Origin: Elusimicrobia bacterium CG1_02_56_21
GTDB lineage: Bacteria > Elusimicrobiota > Elusimicrobia > Elusimicrobiales > UBA9959
NCBI GenBank assembly: GCA_001871115.1
Contig: MNUR01000008.1
Coordinates: forward strand, 1-64,000
Direction: 5' to 3'
Length of the DNA stretch: 64,000 nt
In this document: in pieces, positions 52,684-63,155 of the stretch
Layout of the letters: every line of letters begins with the position of its first letter
How positions within the stretch are numbered: position 1 is the stretch's first letter
Notes under the pieces: generated by a model
What the model saw: only the letters and a program-made list of their open reading frames with translations
Databases searched by the model: none
Told to the model about the DNA's origin: nothing
Translations under genes and position numbers: made by a program

Positions 52684-53883
52684 TCAGTGTTGATGCGGCT
52701 CGCAGGCTTCCGTACCGAACAGGGGCTTCCCGTCGGCAAAAGGCGAGATAGAACGCAGGCGCTCTATTATGGGCGGAAATTCCTTTATTATATAGTCCAC
52801 TTCTTCCTGCGTATTGTAGACGCTGAGGGAGAAGCGTATAGAACCGTGCGCATAGGTCTGGGGCACGGCCATGGACATAAGCACATGCGAGGGCTCCAGG
52901 GAGCCCGAGGTGCACGCTGAACCGGAAGAGGCGCAGATGCCCTTCTCGCTTATCATAAGCAAAATGGACTCGCCTTCTATATATTCAAAGCTGATATTGG
53001 TGGTATTGGGCAGGCGGAGCGCGCCACCGCCGTTCACGCGGGAATTGGGGATCTTCAGGAGGCCGGCTTCGAGGCGGTCGCGCAGTGCTTTTACGTAGGT
53101 GTTCTCTTTTTCGAGGTTGGCCGCGGCCAGTTCGGCGGCTTTACCTATGCCGGCGATATAAGGCACGTTCTCGGTGCCGGCGCGGCGGCCGTGCTCCTGG
53201 TGGCCGCCCATCAGGAAAGGGGCGAAGCGGGAGCCTTTGCGGACGTAGAGTACGCCTATGCCTTTGGGGGCGTGGAGTTTGTGGCCGGAAAGGGAGAGGT
53301 AATCTATCTTGGCGTCTTTGAGGTTTATGGGGAGTTTGCCCACGGCCTGTACGGCGTCGGTGTGGAACAGGGCGCCTTTGGCGTGGGTGATGCGGGCGGC
53401 TTCTTCCACGGGGCAGATGACGCCGGTCTCGTTATTGGCCCACATGATGGAGACCAGCAGGGTTTCGGGGGTGAGGGCGACTTTGAGGTCTTCCAGGTTT
53501 ATCTGGCCTGTGCTGTCCACGGGCAGATAGCTGATCCGGTAGCCCTGGGATTCGAGGAATTTGCAGACATTGAGGACGGCGGGGTGCTCGACCTTGGTGG
53601 TGATGATATGTTTCTTGTCGGGGAAGGCGCGCACGGCCGACCAGAGGGCGGTGGAATCGGACTCGGTTCCGCAGCTGGTGAAAATTATTTCCCCGGGCTC
53701 GGCGCCCAGGAGTTTGGCCACGCGCTCGCGGGCGAGGTCCAGGTATTTCTGGTTGGCGCCGCCGAAGAAGTGCATGCTGGACGGGTTGCCGTAGAGCTCA
53801 TTAAAGAAGGGCTCCATCTCTTTGGCCACTTCGGGGGCCACGCGGCTGGTGGCATTATTGTCGAAATAATAGACTTTTTCCAT
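52684..53883 (-). CDS. nifS: Cysteine desulfurase, NifS/IscS class
   Basis: 399 residues from ATG 53883, with GGAGG 7 bases before; the frame's upstream extension crosses the structured repeat and is not coding. Starts VYYFDNNATSRVAPEVAKEM; HPAVLNVC (cofactor-stacking His); MWANNETGVICP; PLP lysine in LSLSGHKLHAPKGIGVLYV; RAGTENVPYIAGIG; catalytic Cys in ASSGSACTSGSLEPSHVL (group I loop). Supplies sulfur to NifU for Fe-S assembly. Forms an operon with nifU, but a 318-base gap separates them. Confidence 0.93.
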   Translation of the reverse strand: MEKVYYFDNNATSRVAPEVAKEMEPFFNELYGNPSSMHFFGGANQKYLDLARERVAKLLGAEPGEIIFTSCGTESDSTALWSAVRAFPDKKHIITTKVEHPAVLNVCKFLESQGYRISYLPVDSTGQINLEDLKVALTPETLLVSIMWANNETGVICPVEEAARITHAKGALFHTDAVQAVGKLPINLKDAKIDYLSLSGHKLHAPKGIGVLYVRKGSRFAPFLMGGHQEHGRRAGTENVPYIAGIGKAAELAAANLEKENTYVKALRDRLEAGLLKIPNSRVNGGGALRLPNTTNISFEYIEGESILLMISEKGICASSGSACTSGSLEPSHVLMSMAVPQTYAHGSIRFSLSVYNTQEEVDYIIKEFPPIIERLRSISPFADGKPLFGTEACEPHQH

Positions 53884-53946
53884 ATAGATATCCTCCACAG
53901 GGGAACTGCACCGCGAGGAGCCCAGTCGGGGCCTACCGCGCCGGGC

Positions 53947-54040
53947 GGAACGCAAAACGCGCTCGGCCACACCGTGGCCTCGCTCCGTGTTCGCCCGCCG
54001 GACTATGCAGCCGGCGGGCTCTCCGAGGGTTTTGCTAACC
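53947..54040. repeat. Structured intergenic repeat element, copy 2
   Basis: Matches 41287-41381 with one gap. GGAACGCAAAAC opens it and GGTTTTGCTAACC closes it (GCAAAAC pairs with GTTTTGC). Hairpins GGCCAC-acc-GTGGCC (53965-53979) and GCCCGCCGG...CCGGCGGGC (53993-54001 / 54011-54019). In the latter stem the last pair is G-C here and C-G in copy 1, a compensatory change. The loop keeps TATGCA. Confidence 0.75.
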
Positions 54041-54077
54041 TGCCCGCCGCGGTCTCCCCTCCACTGCCTTAATATCA

Positions 54078-54193
54078 GTCCGAACATACGGACGGACGGG
54101 GCTTTGTTCCGAACGCCCTTGGGGAGGGGGCCCCGCTTCAGGGGGAACCGCGCAACGGTTCCCTGCAGTCCGGGCGGGCGGAATAAAGCCCCG
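54078..54193. repeat. Second structured block in the nifU-nifS gap
   Basis: Outer arms CGGGGCTTTGTTCCG (54097-54111) and CGGAATAAAGCCCCG (54179-54193), 14 of 15 paired; inside, GGGGGCCCCGC and a perfect hairpin GGGAACCG-cgcaa-CGGTTCCC (54143-54163); a small hairpin GTCCG-aacata-CGGAC (54078-54093) precedes it. Same internal order as 25584-25694. Confidence 0.65.
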
Positions 54194-54201
54194 GGCGACC
54201 C

Positions 54202-55035
54202 TTACTCCGCTTCTATCTCTATGGCGGGATCGACGCGCTCCCGCAGTTCTTTTTCTACTACGTTCTTGAGCGTGGCGCCGGAGGAGGCGCAGCCGTGGCA
54301 CATGCCGAGGAAGCGGAGTTTTACTTTCTGGCCCTGTATGTCCACCAGTTCCATCCAGCCGCCGTCGGCTTTAAGCCTGGGATTTATCTCTTCGGCCAGG
54401 ACTTTCTCTATTATCTTTATCTTCTCCACCACGGTCATTTTGTCGAATTTTTTGTGCTCGGCTTCGGCCCAGTAATCTTTAATTATTTTTTCTATCTCTC
54501 CGTGGCACTGCCTGCAGCCGCCGCCGGCTTTAGTGAAGTTGGTGACTTCTTCAATGGTATGGAGGTTATTGAGCTTTATGGCTTTGCGGATTACGGATTC
54601 GGTGACGCTGAAACATTTGCAGACTATCTTTTCGGCCTGGCCGATGATGATCTTTTCGGCTTTGGCGCCGCGGTAGTTCTTTATTGCGGCCTCGAGGGCT
54701 TCCATGCCCATGACGGAGCAGTGCATTTTCTCTCCGGGCAGGCCGCCCAGGAAATCGGCGATCTGCTGGTTGGTGATCTTGGAGGCTTCCTCCAGGGTAA
54801 GGCCTTTCACCATCTCGGTGAGGGCCGAAGAGGAAGCGATAGCGCTGGCGCAGCCGAAGGTCTTGAATTTAGCGTCTATGATCTTATCGGCGGCTTTGTC
54901 TATTTTAAGGGTAAGCTTGAGGGCGTCGCCGCAGACTATGCTGCCTATCTCGCCTACGCCGTCGGGGTTTTCTATTTCCCCCACGTTCTTTGGGTTTTTA
55001 AAATGTTCGAATACTTTATCGGTATAGTTCCACAT
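54202..55035 (-). CDS. nifU: NifU Fe-S cluster scaffold (three-domain)
   Basis: 277 residues from ATG 55035 (GAGGA 5-6 bases before); the extension to 55203 is rejected. IscU-like domain with scaffold cysteines C35, C62 and C106; central BFD-like [2Fe-2S] domain with C139, C141, C174 and C177; C-terminal Nfu domain with C246xxC249 (MCHGCASS). This is the full NifU layout known from nitrogen fixers and many anaerobes such as Epsilonproteobacteria, where NIF proteins serve general Fe-S assembly. No nitrogenase gene is in the window, so a housekeeping role is likely. Confidence 0.95.
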   Translation of the reverse strand: MWNYTDKVFEHFKNPKNVGEIENPDGVGEIGSIVCGDALKLTLKIDKAADKIIDAKFKTFGCASAIASSSALTEMVKGLTLEEASKITNQQIADFLGGLPGEKMHCSVMGMEALEAAIKNYRGAKAEKIIIGQAEKIVCKCFSVTESVIRKAIKLNNLHTIEEVTNFTKAGGGCRQCHGEIEKIIKDYWAEAEHKKFDKMTVVEKIKIIEKVLAEEINPRLKADGGWMELVDIQGQKVKLRFLGMCHGCASSGATLKNVVEKELRERVDPAIEIEAE

Positions 55036-55138
55036 ATTTTTCCTCAGTTCGACGCTCTTTATGCGCTCCGGCAGGATTTGGCGCTTTGCAGGCCGCAGCT
55101 GCCTGTAACTATAGTCTATTAAATCCCACCCCGCAGGT

Positions 55139-56161
55139 TCAACCGGCCGGGGCGGCGCTTTTTTTACCCAGGAGACCCCTGGCCAGTTTAAGCGAATGAT
55201 CAACCACGGACAGCGCGGCCTCCGGAGCGGTATAATAGCCGCTGGTGCGCGAGGTCTTCTGGCGCACCACTATAATATCCACTTCCCCGGACCTGCCGGG
55301 CTCATATTCTATCCCGGTCATACCCTTGCCCGTCAAAGAACCCAGAAGGCCGCCCAAAAATGTTGTTTCGGGCTGCGCGGCAAACTCCTCCCAGCCGCTA
55401 AGGAGCCCGGAACCGGCCTTGGCTATCAGTACGCAATAGAGATACGGGAAATCCTTACCCTGTACGCTGTTTATAGAAAGCTGCACCTGCAGTCCGTAGA
55501 ATTCTTTGGGCGCGCCTACAAGCTTCACCATCAGCCTGGCATCCTCCGGTTCCTTGCCGCCTTTCGCCGTGGTTGCGAGCGCAAGGAGGGGCTGCACCTG
55601 TACGTCACTGGGCGCGTTCAGGGCCTTCATAACTTTTTGCAGCATGCCGATCTTTATTATCAGGCGGTCTTTCCTGAGGTAGCCCCTGGTACCGATGAAC
55701 CACATAGGGAGCAGAACTACCGCCGCATCCAGCCCGAAAAATATCCAGTAGCCCGCGGGGAAGCGAAAGAAGCTGTCGGCAATATTGTAAGCCACGAAGC
55801 AGACAAAGCCGGCAGCTATGAACCCAAGCATCCCGCTTGTGCTGGTCCCGTCAAAAAAATCCTCGTCCCAGGCGCGCAGCTGCTCCGCCTTCATGGAGAC
55901 TTTAGTGTAGGCGTCGGGAGTTACTTTCTCCCAGGACTCTTCGCCGGTTTTTTTGGGAGAGGCGTCATAGCCGGAATTTACTCCGAGAACCAGGCCGGCC
56001 AGCAGCAGGGCGAAACCGGGCCAGAAGCCTATGGTCACCTGCATCCCCAGCCCCGCCGCCAGCAGCATAACCACCAGCGCCATGCGCTGCCTGTACGGCA
56101 GGCTCCTGGCTGCGAAGAATTTTATTTCCCCGTCTTTCTCCCGCGGCGGCAATACGCTCAT
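55139..56161 (-). CDS. Membrane protein in the radical SAM operon, unknown
   Basis: 340 residues from ATG 56161, which overlaps the radical SAM stop by 4 bases with GGAGG before it. Four membrane helices: two close together (MALVVMLLAAGLGMQVTIGF; FALLLAGLVLGV) and two more (GMLGFIAAGFVCFVAYNIAD; YWIFFGLDAAVVLLPMWFIG). The C-terminal half (about 170-340) is soluble alpha/beta, with VQVQPLLALATTAKGGKEPE, YGLQVQLSINSVQGKDFPYL and GEVDIIVVRQKTSRTSGYYT. I recognise no family. Tight coupling to the radical SAM gene suggests it belongs to the same system. Confidence 0.75.
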   Translation of the reverse strand: MSVLPPREKDGEIKFFAARSLPYRQRMALVVMLLAAGLGMQVTIGFWPGFALLLAGLVLGVNSGYDASPKKTGEESWEKVTPDAYTKVSMKAEQLRAWDEDFFDGTSTSGMLGFIAAGFVCFVAYNIADSFFRFPAGYWIFFGLDAAVVLLPMWFIGTRGYLRKDRLIIKIGMLQKVMKALNAPSDVQVQPLLALATTAKGGKEPEDARLMVKLVGAPKEFYGLQVQLSINSVQGKDFPYLYCVLIAKAGSGLLSGWEEFAAQPETTFLGGLLGSLTGKGMTGIEYEPGRSGEVDIIVVRQKTSRTSGYYTAPEAALSVVDHSLKLARGLLGKKSAAPAG

Positions 56162-57507
56162 TCTGTCCTCCCCTGCGCGGACGCCGCTTCCAGCAGTTCC
56201 GCATACCCTGTTTTCTCCCAATAAAGCGGGCAGCCCCCGTTGCAGACGGCCAGGTACTGGCAGGCGCGGCATTTTTCGTGGGCGAATTTTTTATCCCTGA
56301 ACCAGGCGAAATCTTCGCGGGCCCAGAGTTTTTTAAAGTTTCCGCTCTCCCGCAGCAGGTTCCCCATCGGCTTCGGGTAGCTGGAACAGGGCAGCACGTC
56401 CCCGTTGGGGGCCACGCTCAGGAGGCCGTCGCAGGCGGCGCAGCCCTTATTTCCCAGCCCGCTGGTTATGGGGTTAAAGATGCAGATAGGCGTAGGCGAA
56501 TACCACATGAATTCAAGGCCCCGTTTTACGGCCATGTCCTTTACCCGCTCCACCAGCGGGCCGGCTTCGCTGTAAGAGACAAAGGTCTCGTCGTAATTTT
56601 TACCGGCTGAGCCTACCGGCATAAGCAGGTTCATTGAAAATTTTTTAAGCCCGATGCTCTTTACCAGGTCCAATATGCCTTCCAACCGGTCCTTATTCAG
56701 GGCCGAAACCGTGGTATTGGTATGCACGCGGATGCCGGCCTTCATTATATTCTCTATGCCTTTAAGCGTGCGCTCAAAAGCGCCCGGGCAGCCGGCGATC
56801 TTGTCATGTTCCAAGGCATGCCCGGCCTCTATGCTCACCTGGGAGGAATCCAGGCCGGCTCCCGCAAGTTTTTTAACCGTTTCTTCCGTGGCCAGCGTCC
56901 CGTTGGTAATAAGGTTGGCCCACATCCCGAGCCCCTTGGCATGCGCCACCAGCTCCGGTATCTCGGGCCTGAGCAGCGGTTCCCCGCCCGTAAAACTCAC
57001 GGATGGGACCTCCGCCTCTTCTTTTATAATGTTCAGTATTCTCTTCAGGTCTTCCGCGGGGAGGTCCGGGTGCTGCTCGTCCTTGCGGCAGCCGCAGGCG
57101 GCGTAACAGAAGCGGCAGGCCAGATTGCAGCGGTAGGTAAGCGCTATTTCGCTGAGCACCGGCAGGCTATTATGGCCCAGGGCGAATTCTTTGGTTTCCA
57201 CGGCTTTGCGCTCTTCCCTCTCTTTATAGCAGCCTTTCAGCAGGGCCATGAGGTCGCGGAAAAAATAGTACATATCCAGGGAGACTCGCTCCCTTTGCGC
57301 CCCGGGGTATTTTTCCACGACGGAGACGGCGCTGCCGCCTTCAAAGAGGAATTTCAGGATCTTTACGCCCTGCGGGTTAAGCTTGTGGGTCTGATTCGGG
57401 ATCTTTATGAGCAGCGAGTCGGCCTCGCGCACGCGCACATACGGCTTTATGCGCGCGGCATAGCCGTCTATCCAGTCCACCCTCTTTACCCAATCCCTCT
57501 TATCCAT
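56158..57507 (-). CDS. Radical SAM/SPASM maturase with N-terminal PqqD-like domain
   Basis: 449 residues. Residues about 28-95 (LLIKIPNQTHKLNPQGVKIL, then FLFEGGSAVSVVEKY) have the PqqD/RRE pattern that binds leader peptides of RiPP substrates. Core radical SAM domain: ALTYRCNLACRFCYAAC with C127, C131 and C134, plus SFTGGEPLLRPEI and LITNGTLAT. SPASM domain for two auxiliary clusters: GCAACDGLLSVAPNGDVLPC and CRACQYLAVCNGGCPLYW. Such enzymes make thioether, C-C or other crosslinks in peptides. GGAAATGG start context. The preceding gene encodes a protein with a Cys-His repeat tail, the obvious candidate substrate. Confidence 0.88.
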   Translation of the reverse strand: MDKRDWVKRVDWIDGYAARIKPYVRVREADSLLIKIPNQTHKLNPQGVKILKFLFEGGSAVSVVEKYPGAQRERVSLDMYYFFRDLMALLKGCYKEREERKAVETKEFALGHNSLPVLSEIALTYRCNLACRFCYAACGCRKDEQHPDLPAEDLKRILNIIKEEAEVPSVSFTGGEPLLRPEIPELVAHAKGLGMWANLITNGTLATEETVKKLAGAGLDSSQVSIEAGHALEHDKIAGCPGAFERTLKGIENIMKAGIRVHTNTTVSALNKDRLEGILDLVKSIGLKKFSMNLLMPVGSAGKNYDETFVSYSEAGPLVERVKDMAVKRGLEFMWYSPTPICIFNPITSGLGNKGCAACDGLLSVAPNGDVLPCSSYPKPMGNLLRESGNFKKLWAREDFAWFRDKKFAHEKCRACQYLAVCNGGCPLYWEKTGYAELLEAASAQGRTE

Positions 57508-57521
57508 TTCCTCTCTCTTGA

Positions 57522-57546
57522 TCTTCGATTCCCGATTCCCGATAGT
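57522..57546 (-). repeat. Post-stop repeat between the Cys-repeat gene and the radical SAM gene
   Basis: Minus strand ATCGGGAATCGGGAATCGAA, starting a few bases after the TAA of the Cys-repeat gene. Confidence 0.55.
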
Positions 57547-57547
57547 T

Positions 57548-59227
57548 TTAATGCCCGCTGCTCACGCAGGCCGAATGGCAGGCGCCGTGGCAGGCTGAGT
57601 GACAGGCGGAATGGCAGGCCGAGTGGCAGGCGTCATGGCAGGCGGAATGGCAGGCGTCATGGCAGGCGGAGTTTACAAAAGCTCCCTCATAGCACATCTT
57701 GGAAGTGCGGAAAGAGTCGAAACCGGCGCCCAGCTCCGCCGGCAGGGCCGCCTTCAACCCGTCCCCGGCCTTTACCGCGCTGTCAAAAGCCCGGTTATCG
57801 TAATTATGAAAATGACGATGATAGCCGCCCCAGTAATACCCGTTATCAGTGGCCAGGTCAGCCTGCCCGCGGGCGTCCACCTGGCCGCGATAGTATTTAC
57901 GCGTAGCGTCCAGGTCGCAATCCCACAGCTTCTGCTCCAGGCCGGCGCCAAGGGTCTTAAGCGCGCTTTCCGCCGCGGCCTGGTCCAAAGTCCCGTCCGG
58001 GGTTATCGCGGAAAGCAGCGCCGTTTCATAAGGGTCATTGCTGGTCTTTATGCCGGGCTGGCGCTCAACGGCCAGAGGGGAGTAGCCTTTAACCCTCAAA
58101 ACTCCTTTGCGCTCCATATTAGCCACCATAAGCCCAAGCATCTCCGGCAGCGGCAGCCCCAGAAGCACGCCCGCTTCTACCGGGCTGAGGTTTTTTACTA
58201 TTTTGCCGGGAACACGGAAACTGCTTACCTGCGCTTTAGGCGCGGCCCACTCCGTGCCGTCCCAATTGACGGCCGAGATCCCGGCCTGAGCCGTCAGCAT
58301 TGAGTTATGCTTTATGGTCATTATAAAGAACGGGGCAACAATAAAGAGTACGGAAAGGATCATCACCAGGTAAATAGACTCACCCCGGTTTACCGGCAGC
58401 CGGGCCAGGATGCTGCCCGGGAAATAGCGGTTCATATAGTACTTTTCCTGCGCCGGAATATACTTGGTGGCTTTGGGCGCGCCCTTGGTCAGGCTGCCGT
58501 AAGCCATAGTATTCAGGGAGAATGCTGCCGCGTCCAGGTAAACCTGCACCTGGAAATGATACCGGCTTTCCAGGGATTTGCGGAAGAACCGAACGCTGAA
58601 AACATCCTTGCCGTCCGCGCTCTTGACGGCGGGATAATCTATGGAATACCGCTCGTTCACAAACTTTTCCGTGCGAAAGCCCAGCTTCTCCAGAACTGCA
58701 CCGTCCACGGGCAGGGAAGCGGGCGCTACCGGGAAGCGGACAACCAGCGCCTGGTGGTCCAGGGGGTCGTCCCACTGTACCGGGGACCAGTTGAACACGG
58801 CCAGGCGAGCGTCCCCGGCCATAGTCTGGGTCAGGTTGCCGGAGGCCTGGAGATCGGCGGCGTAGCGGAAAAAATACGTGACCTCGCCGCTGTTTATAGC
58901 CCGGCCCCCGGCCAGGATGATGTCGTATTTCTTTTCCGAGATCTTATTTATCTCCAGCGGGTACCTGTTGCCGGAAGAGTCCAGGGCGTAAGCGCGCTCA
59001 TAGTCGAACACAGGGGTTTCCTGGAAGCCCTCGAAATAAAAACCGTGCAGAGCCCCACCCTGCCCGGTCCACCTGACCGCGTAAGAGATCTGCGCTTTGC
59101 CGTCTTTGTCCAGCACGGCCTCGGTCTCCACCCAGTTCATCTTAAACCCACCGGCCAAAGCCGGGCGGGCAGCGCAGGCCAGGGCCAGCGCTATAGCAGT
59201 AAAGATCAATGCGATATTCTTTTTCAT
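57548..59227 (-). CDS. DUF2207-like membrane protein ending in Ala-Cys-His repeats
   Basis: 559 residues. Signal peptide (1-25), a DUF2207-like beta domain outside (about 30-275: VETEAVLDKDGKAQISYAVR, RYAADLQASGNLTQTM, FNWSPVQWDDPLDH), one membrane helix (284-305, SIYLVMILSVLFIVAPFFIM) and a cytoplasmic domain (LSPVEAGVLLGLPLPEMLGL, GVLRVKGY). A His/Tyr-rich patch (464-477: YYWGGYHRHFHNY) precedes a tail with nine Cys at exact 4-residue spacing (522-554) and His after each of the first eight. With this topology the tail lies in the cytoplasm, where a radical SAM enzyme could reach it. Known DUF2207 proteins often end in Gly-rich tails; this Cys-His form is unusual. Confidence 0.85.
   Translation of the reverse strand: MKKNIALIFTAIALALACAARPALAGGFKMNWVETEAVLDKDGKAQISYAVRWTGQGGALHGFYFEGFQETPVFDYERAYALDSSGNRYPLEINKISEKKYDIILAGGRAINSGEVTYFFRYAADLQASGNLTQTMAGDARLAVFNWSPVQWDDPLDHQALVVRFPVAPASLPVDGAVLEKLGFRTEKFVNERYSIDYPAVKSADGKDVFSVRFFRKSLESRYHFQVQVYLDAAAFSLNTMAYGSLTKGAPKATKYIPAQEKYYMNRYFPGSILARLPVNRGESIYLVMILSVLFIVAPFFIMTIKHNSMLTAQAGISAVNWDGTEWAAPKAQVSSFRVPGKIVKNLSPVEAGVLLGLPLPEMLGLMVANMERKGVLRVKGYSPLAVERQPGIKTSNDPYETALLSAITPDGTLDQAAAESALKTLGAGLEQKLWDCDLDATRKYYRGQVDARGQADLATDNGYYWGGYHRHFHNYDNRAFDSAVKAGDGLKAALPAELGAGFDSFRTSKMCYEGAFVNSACHDACHSACHDACHSACHSACHSACHGACHSACVSSGH
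57566..57667 (-). repeat. 12-bp tandem repeat encoding the ACH[S/D/G] tail
   Basis: Eight and a half copies of a 12-base unit (TGGCAGGCGGAA-like on the plus strand), each encoding Ala-Cys-His plus Ser, Asp or Gly. Third positions and the Ser/Asp/Gly codon vary, so the copies are not all recent duplicates. Confidence 0.85.
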
Positions 59228-59243
59228 CAGCTTTCCCCCGGGA

Positions 59244-59807
59244 TCATGAATGCGGCGCCGCTGCGGCCGCAGCCTGGAATTCTTTTTTCAGCGCTCCGCG
59301 GTCCATGGCCAGGGCCCACCACAGACAGAGAGCGCCGGCCAGCAGGGAGCCCACCCTGGCTATAAAAGCCGCCGCCCTTACCGCGTCGTTAAATTCGGGC
59401 GCCAGCGAAATCCCTCCGTAGAATAGCGGCCGCGGCACGGCCAGCCAGGGGAAGAGAAGAAGCAGAAGGGCCGCGGCGCTGAGCAGGTAAAGCATGTAGA
59501 CGGCCCCGCGCCTGGCCCACTCTTTTCTGCCCCATATCCCGACGGCCAGCACGAACCCCGAGACCCAGAAAAAAAAGGAAAAGGCGAAAACCAGGCGCAT
59601 ATTGCGGTAGATAAAGCCGGCCAGCGGCGGCATTTCCACGGGAACGCTGGAGCGCGCCAGCGCAAGGAAGAAAGCGGGGGTGGAAAAAACATCCAGGAAT
59701 GTCAGAATATCGAGGAAAGCCTTTGCCGCCATTACGCCGCAGACAGCGGCGGCGGCCAGCGAAAAGCCGGAAAGAACTTTGGATTTACCTTCAGGCAGCA
59801 GCTTCAT
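59244..59807 (-). CDS. Small multi-pass membrane protein at the head of the radical SAM operon
   Basis: 187 residues with four to five membrane helices: VLSGFSLAAAAVCGVMAAKA, MRLVFAFSFFFWVSGFVLAV, YMLYLLSAAALLLLLFPWLA and AFIARVGSLLAGALCLWWAL. An extracytoplasmic loop between helices 1 and 2 has LARSSVPVEMPPLAGFIYRN. No family recognised. It starts the operon, 16 bases before the Cys-repeat protein, and may assist its insertion or function. Confidence 0.7.
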   Translation of the reverse strand: MKLLPEGKSKVLSGFSLAAAAVCGVMAAKAFLDILTFLDVFSTPAFFLALARSSVPVEMPPLAGFIYRNMRLVFAFSFFFWVSGFVLAVGIWGRKEWARRGAVYMLYLLSAAALLLLLFPWLAVPRPLFYGGISLAPEFNDAVRAAAFIARVGSLLAGALCLWWALAMDRGALKKEFQAAAAAAPHS

Positions 59808-62399: not shown

Positions 62400-63155
62400 T
62401 TATTTCACGTTTTTAAGTATGACATAGCCGCCGGGCCCGAAAGCCGGGGTTTTGGCTCCCATGGCCTTGAACACCTGCGTATCGAGCGCCCAATAGGGCT
62501 CGTACCATTGCCGGTCCACGTCGAAGACCAGGACGCGGCGGGTCTTTTCGTCGTAGGCGCCCACAGGGGAGATATGCGGGAAGGGGCCGCCCGGCGCCCC
62601 GGTCAGGATGTCCTGCGTAAAATGAAGCAGCATGATATTGTCAGGGTTGCGCTCGTTCTCGCCGAGGGCTTTCCTGAACCTTTCCAGCGCCAGGGCCGAC
62701 TTCGCGTTTACCGTTACGCTGCTGGCAGAAAAACCTTCAGCGCCGTAAGCCGACCCGGCTTCTGCCGCCCCCGCGGCCAGCTGGTCCAGGGTCAGGCCGC
62801 GCCTGCCGTCAGCTCCGGCCTCGCTCACCAGCCCGGCCCAGTTAAACCCAGCAACCTTCGCTACAAGCTTTTCCGCCGCTATATTTTCCTCTTCATCCCC
62901 GCGCTGGCGGCGGGAATTGAATAGAGCGTTAAGAGCCATAGAGACGGAAGCTGCGGAGCACGAAGCGGAAGTTTCCTGCGGCACATAGAAAGAAGCCAGG
63001 GCCCAGTAATCGTAAGCCGGCACAGCCGGGTTCCTGAAATAAGCGTTGTCGAGGGTAATAGGCACCGCCACGGCCCCGCCGGCCGGGGCGTATTTCCAGG
63101 TTTCGCCGCGCGCAGGCGGACAGGCAAGAATTAAAAGGCAGAAAAATATCTTCAT
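62400..63155 (-). CDS. Secreted phytochelatin-synthase-like cysteine protease
   Basis: 251 residues with a signal peptide (MKIFFCLLILACPPARG). Papain-like fold of the phytochelatin synthase N-domain: FYVPQETSASCSAASVSMAL with catalytic C66, FPHISPVGAYDEKTRRVLVF with H194 and D212 (FDVDRQWYEPYW). Plant and some bacterial relatives transfer or cleave gamma-Glu-Cys from glutathione; bacterial half-length forms mainly hydrolyse glutathione or have unknown substrates. Export to the periplasm suggests a hydrolase. 10 bases after the MFS gene. Confidence 0.85.
   Translation of the reverse strand: MKIFFCLLILACPPARGETWKYAPAGGAVAVPITLDNAYFRNPAVPAYDYWALASFYVPQETSASCSAASVSMALNALFNSRRQRGDEEENIAAEKLVAKVAGFNWAGLVSEAGADGRRGLTLDQLAAGAAEAGSAYGAEGFSASSVTVNAKSALALERFRKALGENERNPDNIMLLHFTQDILTGAPGGPFPHISPVGAYDEKTRRVLVFDVDRQWYEPYWALDTQVFKAMGAKTPAFGPGGYVILKNVK

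Follow-up and report, generated by a model that had tools for sequence, protein, structure and literature searches.

The window analysed here, a stretch of 64,000 nucleotides from Elusimicrobia bacterium CG1_02_56_21 (contig MNUR01000008.1), carries at 55139-59807 on the minus strand, to which all window coordinates below refer, four close-packed open reading frames (ORFs). They had been picked out in an original prediction as a system resembling those that make ribosomally synthesized and post-translationally modified peptides (RiPPs), and all four were seen in our analysis. Gene A (59244-59807), upstream of B, encodes a small membrane protein of 187 amino acids (aa). Gene B (57548-59227) encodes a single-pass membrane protein of 559 aa, which its homologues mark as DUF2207/TIGR04222-like and which ends in a Cys tail, the proposed substrate. 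Gene C (56158-57507) encodes a radical SAM/SPASM enzyme of 449 aa, as indicated by domain matches, with an N-terminal domain that is predicted to fold like a RiPP recognition element (RRE). Gene D (55139-56161) encodes a membrane protein of 340 aa without a Pfam family, with about four hydrophobic segments and a soluble domain. The ORF of gene D as first called spanned 55139-56272, but the start at 56161 is more likely because the homologues align from MSVLPP.

The repeat tail of membrane protein B

The tail of B (residues 522-559; 57551-57664) reads (ACHx)8-ACVSSGH, and the nine Cys residues spaced by four (522, 526 ... 554), with His after each of the first eight, were found as originally described. 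Codons were compared pairwise among 14 orthologous tails of equal length, which had been found by whole-protein homology. The comparison gave 1527 synonymous and 186 non-synonymous differences, and none of the latter affected the Cys, His or Ala positions of the repeat. In the 60 codons before the tail, compared ungapped, 1139 synonymous and 2696 non-synonymous differences were counted. Across phyla, the identity to B of the window was 87% in the tail, about 30% in the ectodomain and the cytosolic domain, and 18% in the linker. The tail is, thus, under extreme amino-acid constraint. The x position of the repeat (Cys+2) was occupied by S, D or G and rarely by other residues, N included; because all four occur there and even Gly is allowed, the side chain at x is not an obligatory acceptor. 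The number of Cys varied from 4 to 10, and the cross-phylum tails were mostly (ACHx)nACVSGGxH. A variant tail with a shortened unit was observed at loci L150, L195 and L301, ending in SSCAG[GS]F in L150 and L195, where B is longer (669 and 924 aa, respectively); the enzymes of these three loci form the deepest branches of the ACH group described below. A literature search found no biological mention of the ACHx motif.

The order of elements in B is signal peptide, beta ectodomain, one transmembrane helix, winged-helix-like domain and tail, within a length of about 500-600 aa in most genomes. The predicted signal peptide (residues 1-26; 59150-59227) was recognised by sequence and hydropathy, beginning with KKN and continuing through a hydrophobic stretch to ALAG. 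The helix at residues 284-305 (58313-58378), which the original prediction had also placed there, was present in the hydropathy profiles of 15 homologues and appeared in the AlphaFold2 model as a helix at 284-317. Anchoring of the tail to the membrane, as originally predicted, was upheld. As for the side, positive charge was higher after the helix in most of the 15 homologues, and the tail should lie on the cytoplasmic side, where the radical SAM enzyme works. Outside the tail, the best-conserved stretch was residues 431-448 (EQKLWDCDLDATRKYYRG; 57884-57937), in which K433, W435, D438, A441, T442 and Y446 are invariant across phyla and around which the highest-scoring conserved 15-mers begin (432-436); it is a candidate docking segment of a leader-like kind. 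The only structures hit by B in a fold search were the N-terminal beta domain of M1 aminopeptidases and OST subunits, and this likeness of fold says nothing about function.

Co-occurrence of B, C and D

The genomes examined were mostly metagenome-assembled, and most of the group counts given below are samples of larger groups. An orthologue of C was present in 25 of the 149 genomes of the window's order at 62-100% identity, the next-best radical SAM proteins of the order being near 35-38%. B was found in the same 25 genomes and, as a short remnant, in one more (G094); D was found in exactly the same 25, in two of which (G107 and G147) the unit was split by contig breaks; a profile of C retrieved only those 25 among 341 genomes of the phylum. 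Since many members of the same genus lack B, C and D together, the unit is gained or lost as a whole. The remnant of B in G094 (L084, contig C259, around 2486-2776) lies at the syntenic spot between the ACT-domain and nifU genes, and the unit looks recently lost there.

The tail was also searched for as DNA (CHxxCHxxCHxxCH) over the GTDB genome collection, with no protein used. Among the matches listed, at least 21 loci were long ORFs ending in the tail, all of them B homologues; the remaining matches, dropped by eye, were ORFs that were short or lacked a B-type C-terminal tail, or low-complexity sequence in the wrong frame. A C orthologue, with 38-50% identity to C of the window, adjoined the tail gene at 20 of these 21 loci (truncated at the end of a contig in one of the 20), the remaining locus being L114. 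D lay beside most of the cross-phylum B/C pairs. The bins carrying the tail gene were labelled Myxococcales/Deltaproteobacteria, Acidobacteria, Aminicenantes, Kiritimatiellae, Chloroflexi, Planctomycetota, Abditibacteriota, Gammaproteobacteria and Spirochaetes, and the unit is present in at least nine phyla.

Starting from the enzyme, C orthologues were found in 3 of 193 genomes of the class of L118, 7 of 195 of the order of L154 and 9 of 199 of Planctomycetota, all of these carriers having the tail, although in two or three the unit was split over contigs. The phylum of L199, read as Acidobacteriota, contained eight genomes with a C orthologue, seven of which have the tail. With the genomes first found through the tail left out, the tail was present in 44 of the 45 genomes carrying C. 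The co-occurrence of tail and enzyme, the absence of which had been set beforehand as one of the refuting conditions of the original prediction, was thus near one-to-one across phyla. Moreover, distances correlated between B and C at 0.91 (3 of 2000 permutations as high) and between D and C at 0.75 (0 of 2000). No C orthologue was found on plasmids, which gave only a 31% identical TIGR04053-type protein.

The four-gene system originally proposed was, accordingly, upheld for B, C and D and not for the lineage-specific gene A, which was detected in some of the 25 relatives, within part of the window's own family, and not beside the cross-phylum B/C pairs; the conserved core is for this reason one of three genes. 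In the relatives, B, C and D are adjacent and usually flanked by an ACT-domain gene and nifU/nifS genes. The nifU-like and nifS-like genes of the window (52684-55203) adjoin the operon in most relatives; this is likely just synteny, and their products could supply Fe-S clusters to C. A phytochelatin synthase-like protein (PF05023, 4.1e-22) is also encoded at 62400-63155, about 2.6 kb from the operon.

Enzyme C, its sister clade and the proposed modification of the tail

C matched PF04055 (3.1e-27) and, above the cut-off, PF13186 (6.2e-10). The CxxxCxxC motif for the radical SAM [4Fe-4S] cluster, pointed out earlier at residues 127-134, is present (57106-57129), and C127, C131 and C134 were found in all 61 enzymes compared. 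The SPASM cysteines also mentioned there proved to form a conserved seven-Cys pattern (C342, C356, C374, C413, C416, C422 and C426; residues 342-426; 56230-56484), on which two auxiliary clusters are expected. In the AlphaFold2 model (pLDDT 87, pTM 0.89), a helix, three strands and three helices precede the barrel; the elements of the N-terminus include strands at 24-27, 32-35 and 39-43 and helices at 45-55, 60-64 and 69-90, and the modelled order is that of an RRE. The best Foldseek matches were two RiPP maturases, SkfB and SuiB, of which SuiB aligned along the whole length, and the epimerase EpeE was also among the matches. In the sequences of the region (residues 1-95; 57223-57507), R27, D30, P37 and N44 were invariant among 17 from different phyla, the PqqD profile matched 13 of the 17 (best 1.5e-4), and the two best matches of their profile in the PDB were TfuB1 and PqqD, both in register, at E values of 0.07-0.09. 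The PqqD-like region originally proposed agrees with the strand-helix order of the predicted fold, so that the refuting condition set on it (a structure unlike an RRE) did not apply to the model; its sequence similarity to PqqD, though in register, was weak.

A profile search in the phylum of L199 additionally gave 19 sister enzymes from Acidobacteriota (E 1e-81 to 1e-95), all 19 of which are encoded near a membrane protein with another Cys tail, typically SGGGCACACACAGCACACAGGGR. These CACA-tail proteins are usually weak homologues of B, and one of them matched PF20990; the system is a second, equally unnamed tail system. In a maximum-likelihood tree, the ACH-tail and CACA-tail enzymes formed two groups with support of 98/100 for CACA and 85/90 for ACH, the latter being moderate and the outgroup branches long. 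The CACA group lacks R27 and P37, which do not vary among the RREs of the ACH group, and D30, which hardly does, and retains the cluster cysteines. Because the sister clade pairs with the CACA tail and branches separately from the ACH enzymes, the enzyme clade predicts the tail type, and this correspondence is the strongest evidence presented here for the tail as the substrate. Furthermore, the CACA repeat has no His, so that Cys (and Ala) are the elements common to both tail types.

Sister enzymes near CACACACAGCACACAGGGR-tailed membrane proteins were observed at loci L302-L320 and L322 in the phylum of L199. A shorter CACA form at L315 (2573-3508) and L319 (508-1470), downstream of the enzyme, is without the winged-helix-like domain, such that the signal peptide, ectodomain and one transmembrane helix are directly followed by a Gly-rich tail ending in CACACVSCACACACAGGGGAGC. 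At L322 (8210-12770; G967), two different radical SAM genes stand in tandem before the CACA-tail protein.

We consider it probable, judging from the sequences, that B, C and D constitute a modification unit in which C acts on the tail of B in the cytoplasm and the array is kept at the membrane, modification of the tail being the most likely activity of C. B would be exported by means of its signal peptide, leaving the beta domain outside and, after one membrane crossing, the (Ala-Cys-His-x)n tail in the cytoplasm. Cytosolic C may dock on B through its RRE, probably at K-x-W-D-x-D-x-x-A-T-x-x-x-Y, which precedes the tail by some 75 residues, and would then apply radical SAM/SPASM chemistry stepwise to successive Cys of the tail. 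The likeliest products would be Cys thioethers of the sactionine or ranthionine kind, joined to a nearby backbone carbon or to a carbon of Ala or His, but this chemistry is a guess with about even chances. The modified array would remain tethered at the inner membrane face beside D and might handle metal or redox equivalents, a role that we put forward only tentatively. It is perhaps a little short of an even prospect that the two enzyme branches represent one family, occurring in at least nine phyla, which modifies the cytoplasmic ACHx or CACA tails of single-pass membrane proteins into permanent tethered Cys/His arrays for metal or electron handling that are never cleaved or secreted.

Several observations weigh against modification of the tail by C. 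The N-terminus of C of the window itself gave no PqqD match in the profile search of the 17 N-termini, and the RRE sequence similarity of C is below the Pfam cut-off. At L114 (443-3139), a second B gene is followed by a D homologue with no adjacent C, the C of that genome being at L129. Conversely, L300/L321 (G1043:C217) carries C and D with no B or other Cys-repeat ORF on its 16-kb contig, the sole exception to the rule that the enzyme implies the tail. Finally, the cross-phylum neighbourhoods had no further gene in common and no conserved protease or exporter beside the unit, unlike those of secreted RiPPs.

Radical SAM/SPASM enzymes catalyse many reactions, and C may act on the tail without forming thioethers, namely, by epimerisation, C-C links or alteration of His or Ala, with free Cys thiols and His binding metal. 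The ACH tail conserves His as strictly as Cys, and EpeE is among the fold matches, both of which are consistent with this, but the CACA repeat dispenses with His, and SkfB and SuiB, which head the fold matches, cross-link peptides; we regard this alternative as rather unlikely, though deserving of serious attention. It is less probable still that the tail stays unmodified and serves as a metal-binding or redox element, while C modifies D, some other protein or a small molecule and B is a scaffold or a source of electrons or metal. The tail on its own could plausibly bind metal, D is linked as strictly as B, and the best sub-threshold NCBIfam matches of C are the haem-pathway enzymes AhbD and NirJ2; against this, the enzyme clade follows the tail motif, an RRE points to a peptide or protein as the substrate, and C was accompanied by the tail with no exception in the 149 genomes.

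The same haem-enzyme matches and the presence of CxxxCH in the repeat could also suggest a c-type multihaem array, in which the overlapping motifs bind covalent haem and C takes part in haem synthesis. However, the tail is predicted to be cytoplasmic, haem enzymes do not need an RRE, and a search for the cytochrome c assembly protein PF01578 came up empty in about half of the 25 genomes with the tail, some of which are 95-99% complete; the idea is largely refuted and keeps a very slight probability. Slighter yet is that of a functionless low-complexity or slippage product, which the short unit and the variable copy number might evoke: the same tail with the ACVSGG end recurs in many phyla, and chance low complexity was rejected because codon change is almost purely synonymous, TCN and AGY Ser codons included.

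Relation to known systems

Radical SAM/SPASM enzymes with an RRE are known mainly for the production of small peptides. If C does modify the tail of B, RiPP-type chemistry would be performed on a resident membrane protein, widely across phyla; the unnamed families B and D would gain a testable role, and the two sister enzyme clades with their two tail motifs would allow a ready-made comparison of the features that the enzyme recognises. C shares the predicted fold of the RRE-bearing maturases (SkfB, SuiB and the sactisynthases), with an RRE-like N-terminus, the radical SAM barrel and SPASM, but its substrate would be part of a membrane protein of 500-600 aa, namely the tail, and neither a leader protease nor an exporter is conserved beside it. 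The B unit lacks the small precursor, leader removal and export genes that define a RiPP in the strict sense. In the NCBIfam release of June 2026, none of the matches listed for B, C and D, the radical SAM equivalogs for C included, scored above the cut-off of its model. No description of the B-C-D system was found in the literature, subscription papers and preprints being outside the scope of the search; DUF2207 is named in none of the papers listed for it together with radical SAM, and TIGR04222 appears in two papers, the MNIO study being one.

In the freyrasin-type ranthipeptide system PapB/PapA, one enzyme forms several thioethers on regularly spaced Cys motifs, with Cys-Asp/Glu links in CX3D/E (PMC9413430). 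The regular spacing is shared with B, whereas Asp occurs only occasionally at x (Cys+2) here, and the substrate would be a membrane protein. A Cys spacing of four is also common to B and TIGR04117 (Cys-Xaa-Xaa-Xaa repeat radical SAM targets, Syntroph_Cxxx), the hidden Markov model of which gave weak hits to the tail (best 2.9e-4) in 12 of the 15 B proteins compared. B was not assigned to TIGR04117, as the match is to the tail only and scored 12.2 bits in the window and 20.8 in the best relative against a cut-off of 50; the model has 98 positions, whereas B has about 560 aa with an ectodomain and a transmembrane helix. The DUF2207 likeness originally noted for B is below the cut-off in the window protein, which scored 13.9 bits (E 0.065) against a Pfam gathering threshold of 24.4; of 15 B proteins, 5 gave weak matches to the N-terminal domain (PF09972; best 1.5e-4).

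A further parallel concerns the TIGR04222 (near_uncomplex) membrane proteins, which are encoded beside MNIO enzymes and have a C-terminal Cys tail predicted to be periplasmic (PMC12452194). The link to this family, raised in the original prediction, stands as distant homology of the central domain of B (best 2.5e-7) and fails as membership, with no match in the window and 30.6 bits in the best relative against an NCBIfam cut-off of 43. Both systems place a Cys-tailed membrane protein beside a peptide-modifying metalloenzyme, but the enzyme superfamily differs, being radical SAM here, the tail is predicted to be periplasmic there and cytoplasmic here, and a Gly/Ser-rich tail with loose enzyme pairing contrasts with a strict ACHx repeat and near-obligate pairing. 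The B-C-D system, thus, represents a previously undescribed system of the RRE-SPASM type with a Cys-repeat target, an enzyme-swapped analogue of MNIO/TIGR04222. Because what has been proposed for MNIO/TIGR04222 is paralleled here by an unrelated enzyme, Cys tails may be a more general target of peptide-modifying enzymes.

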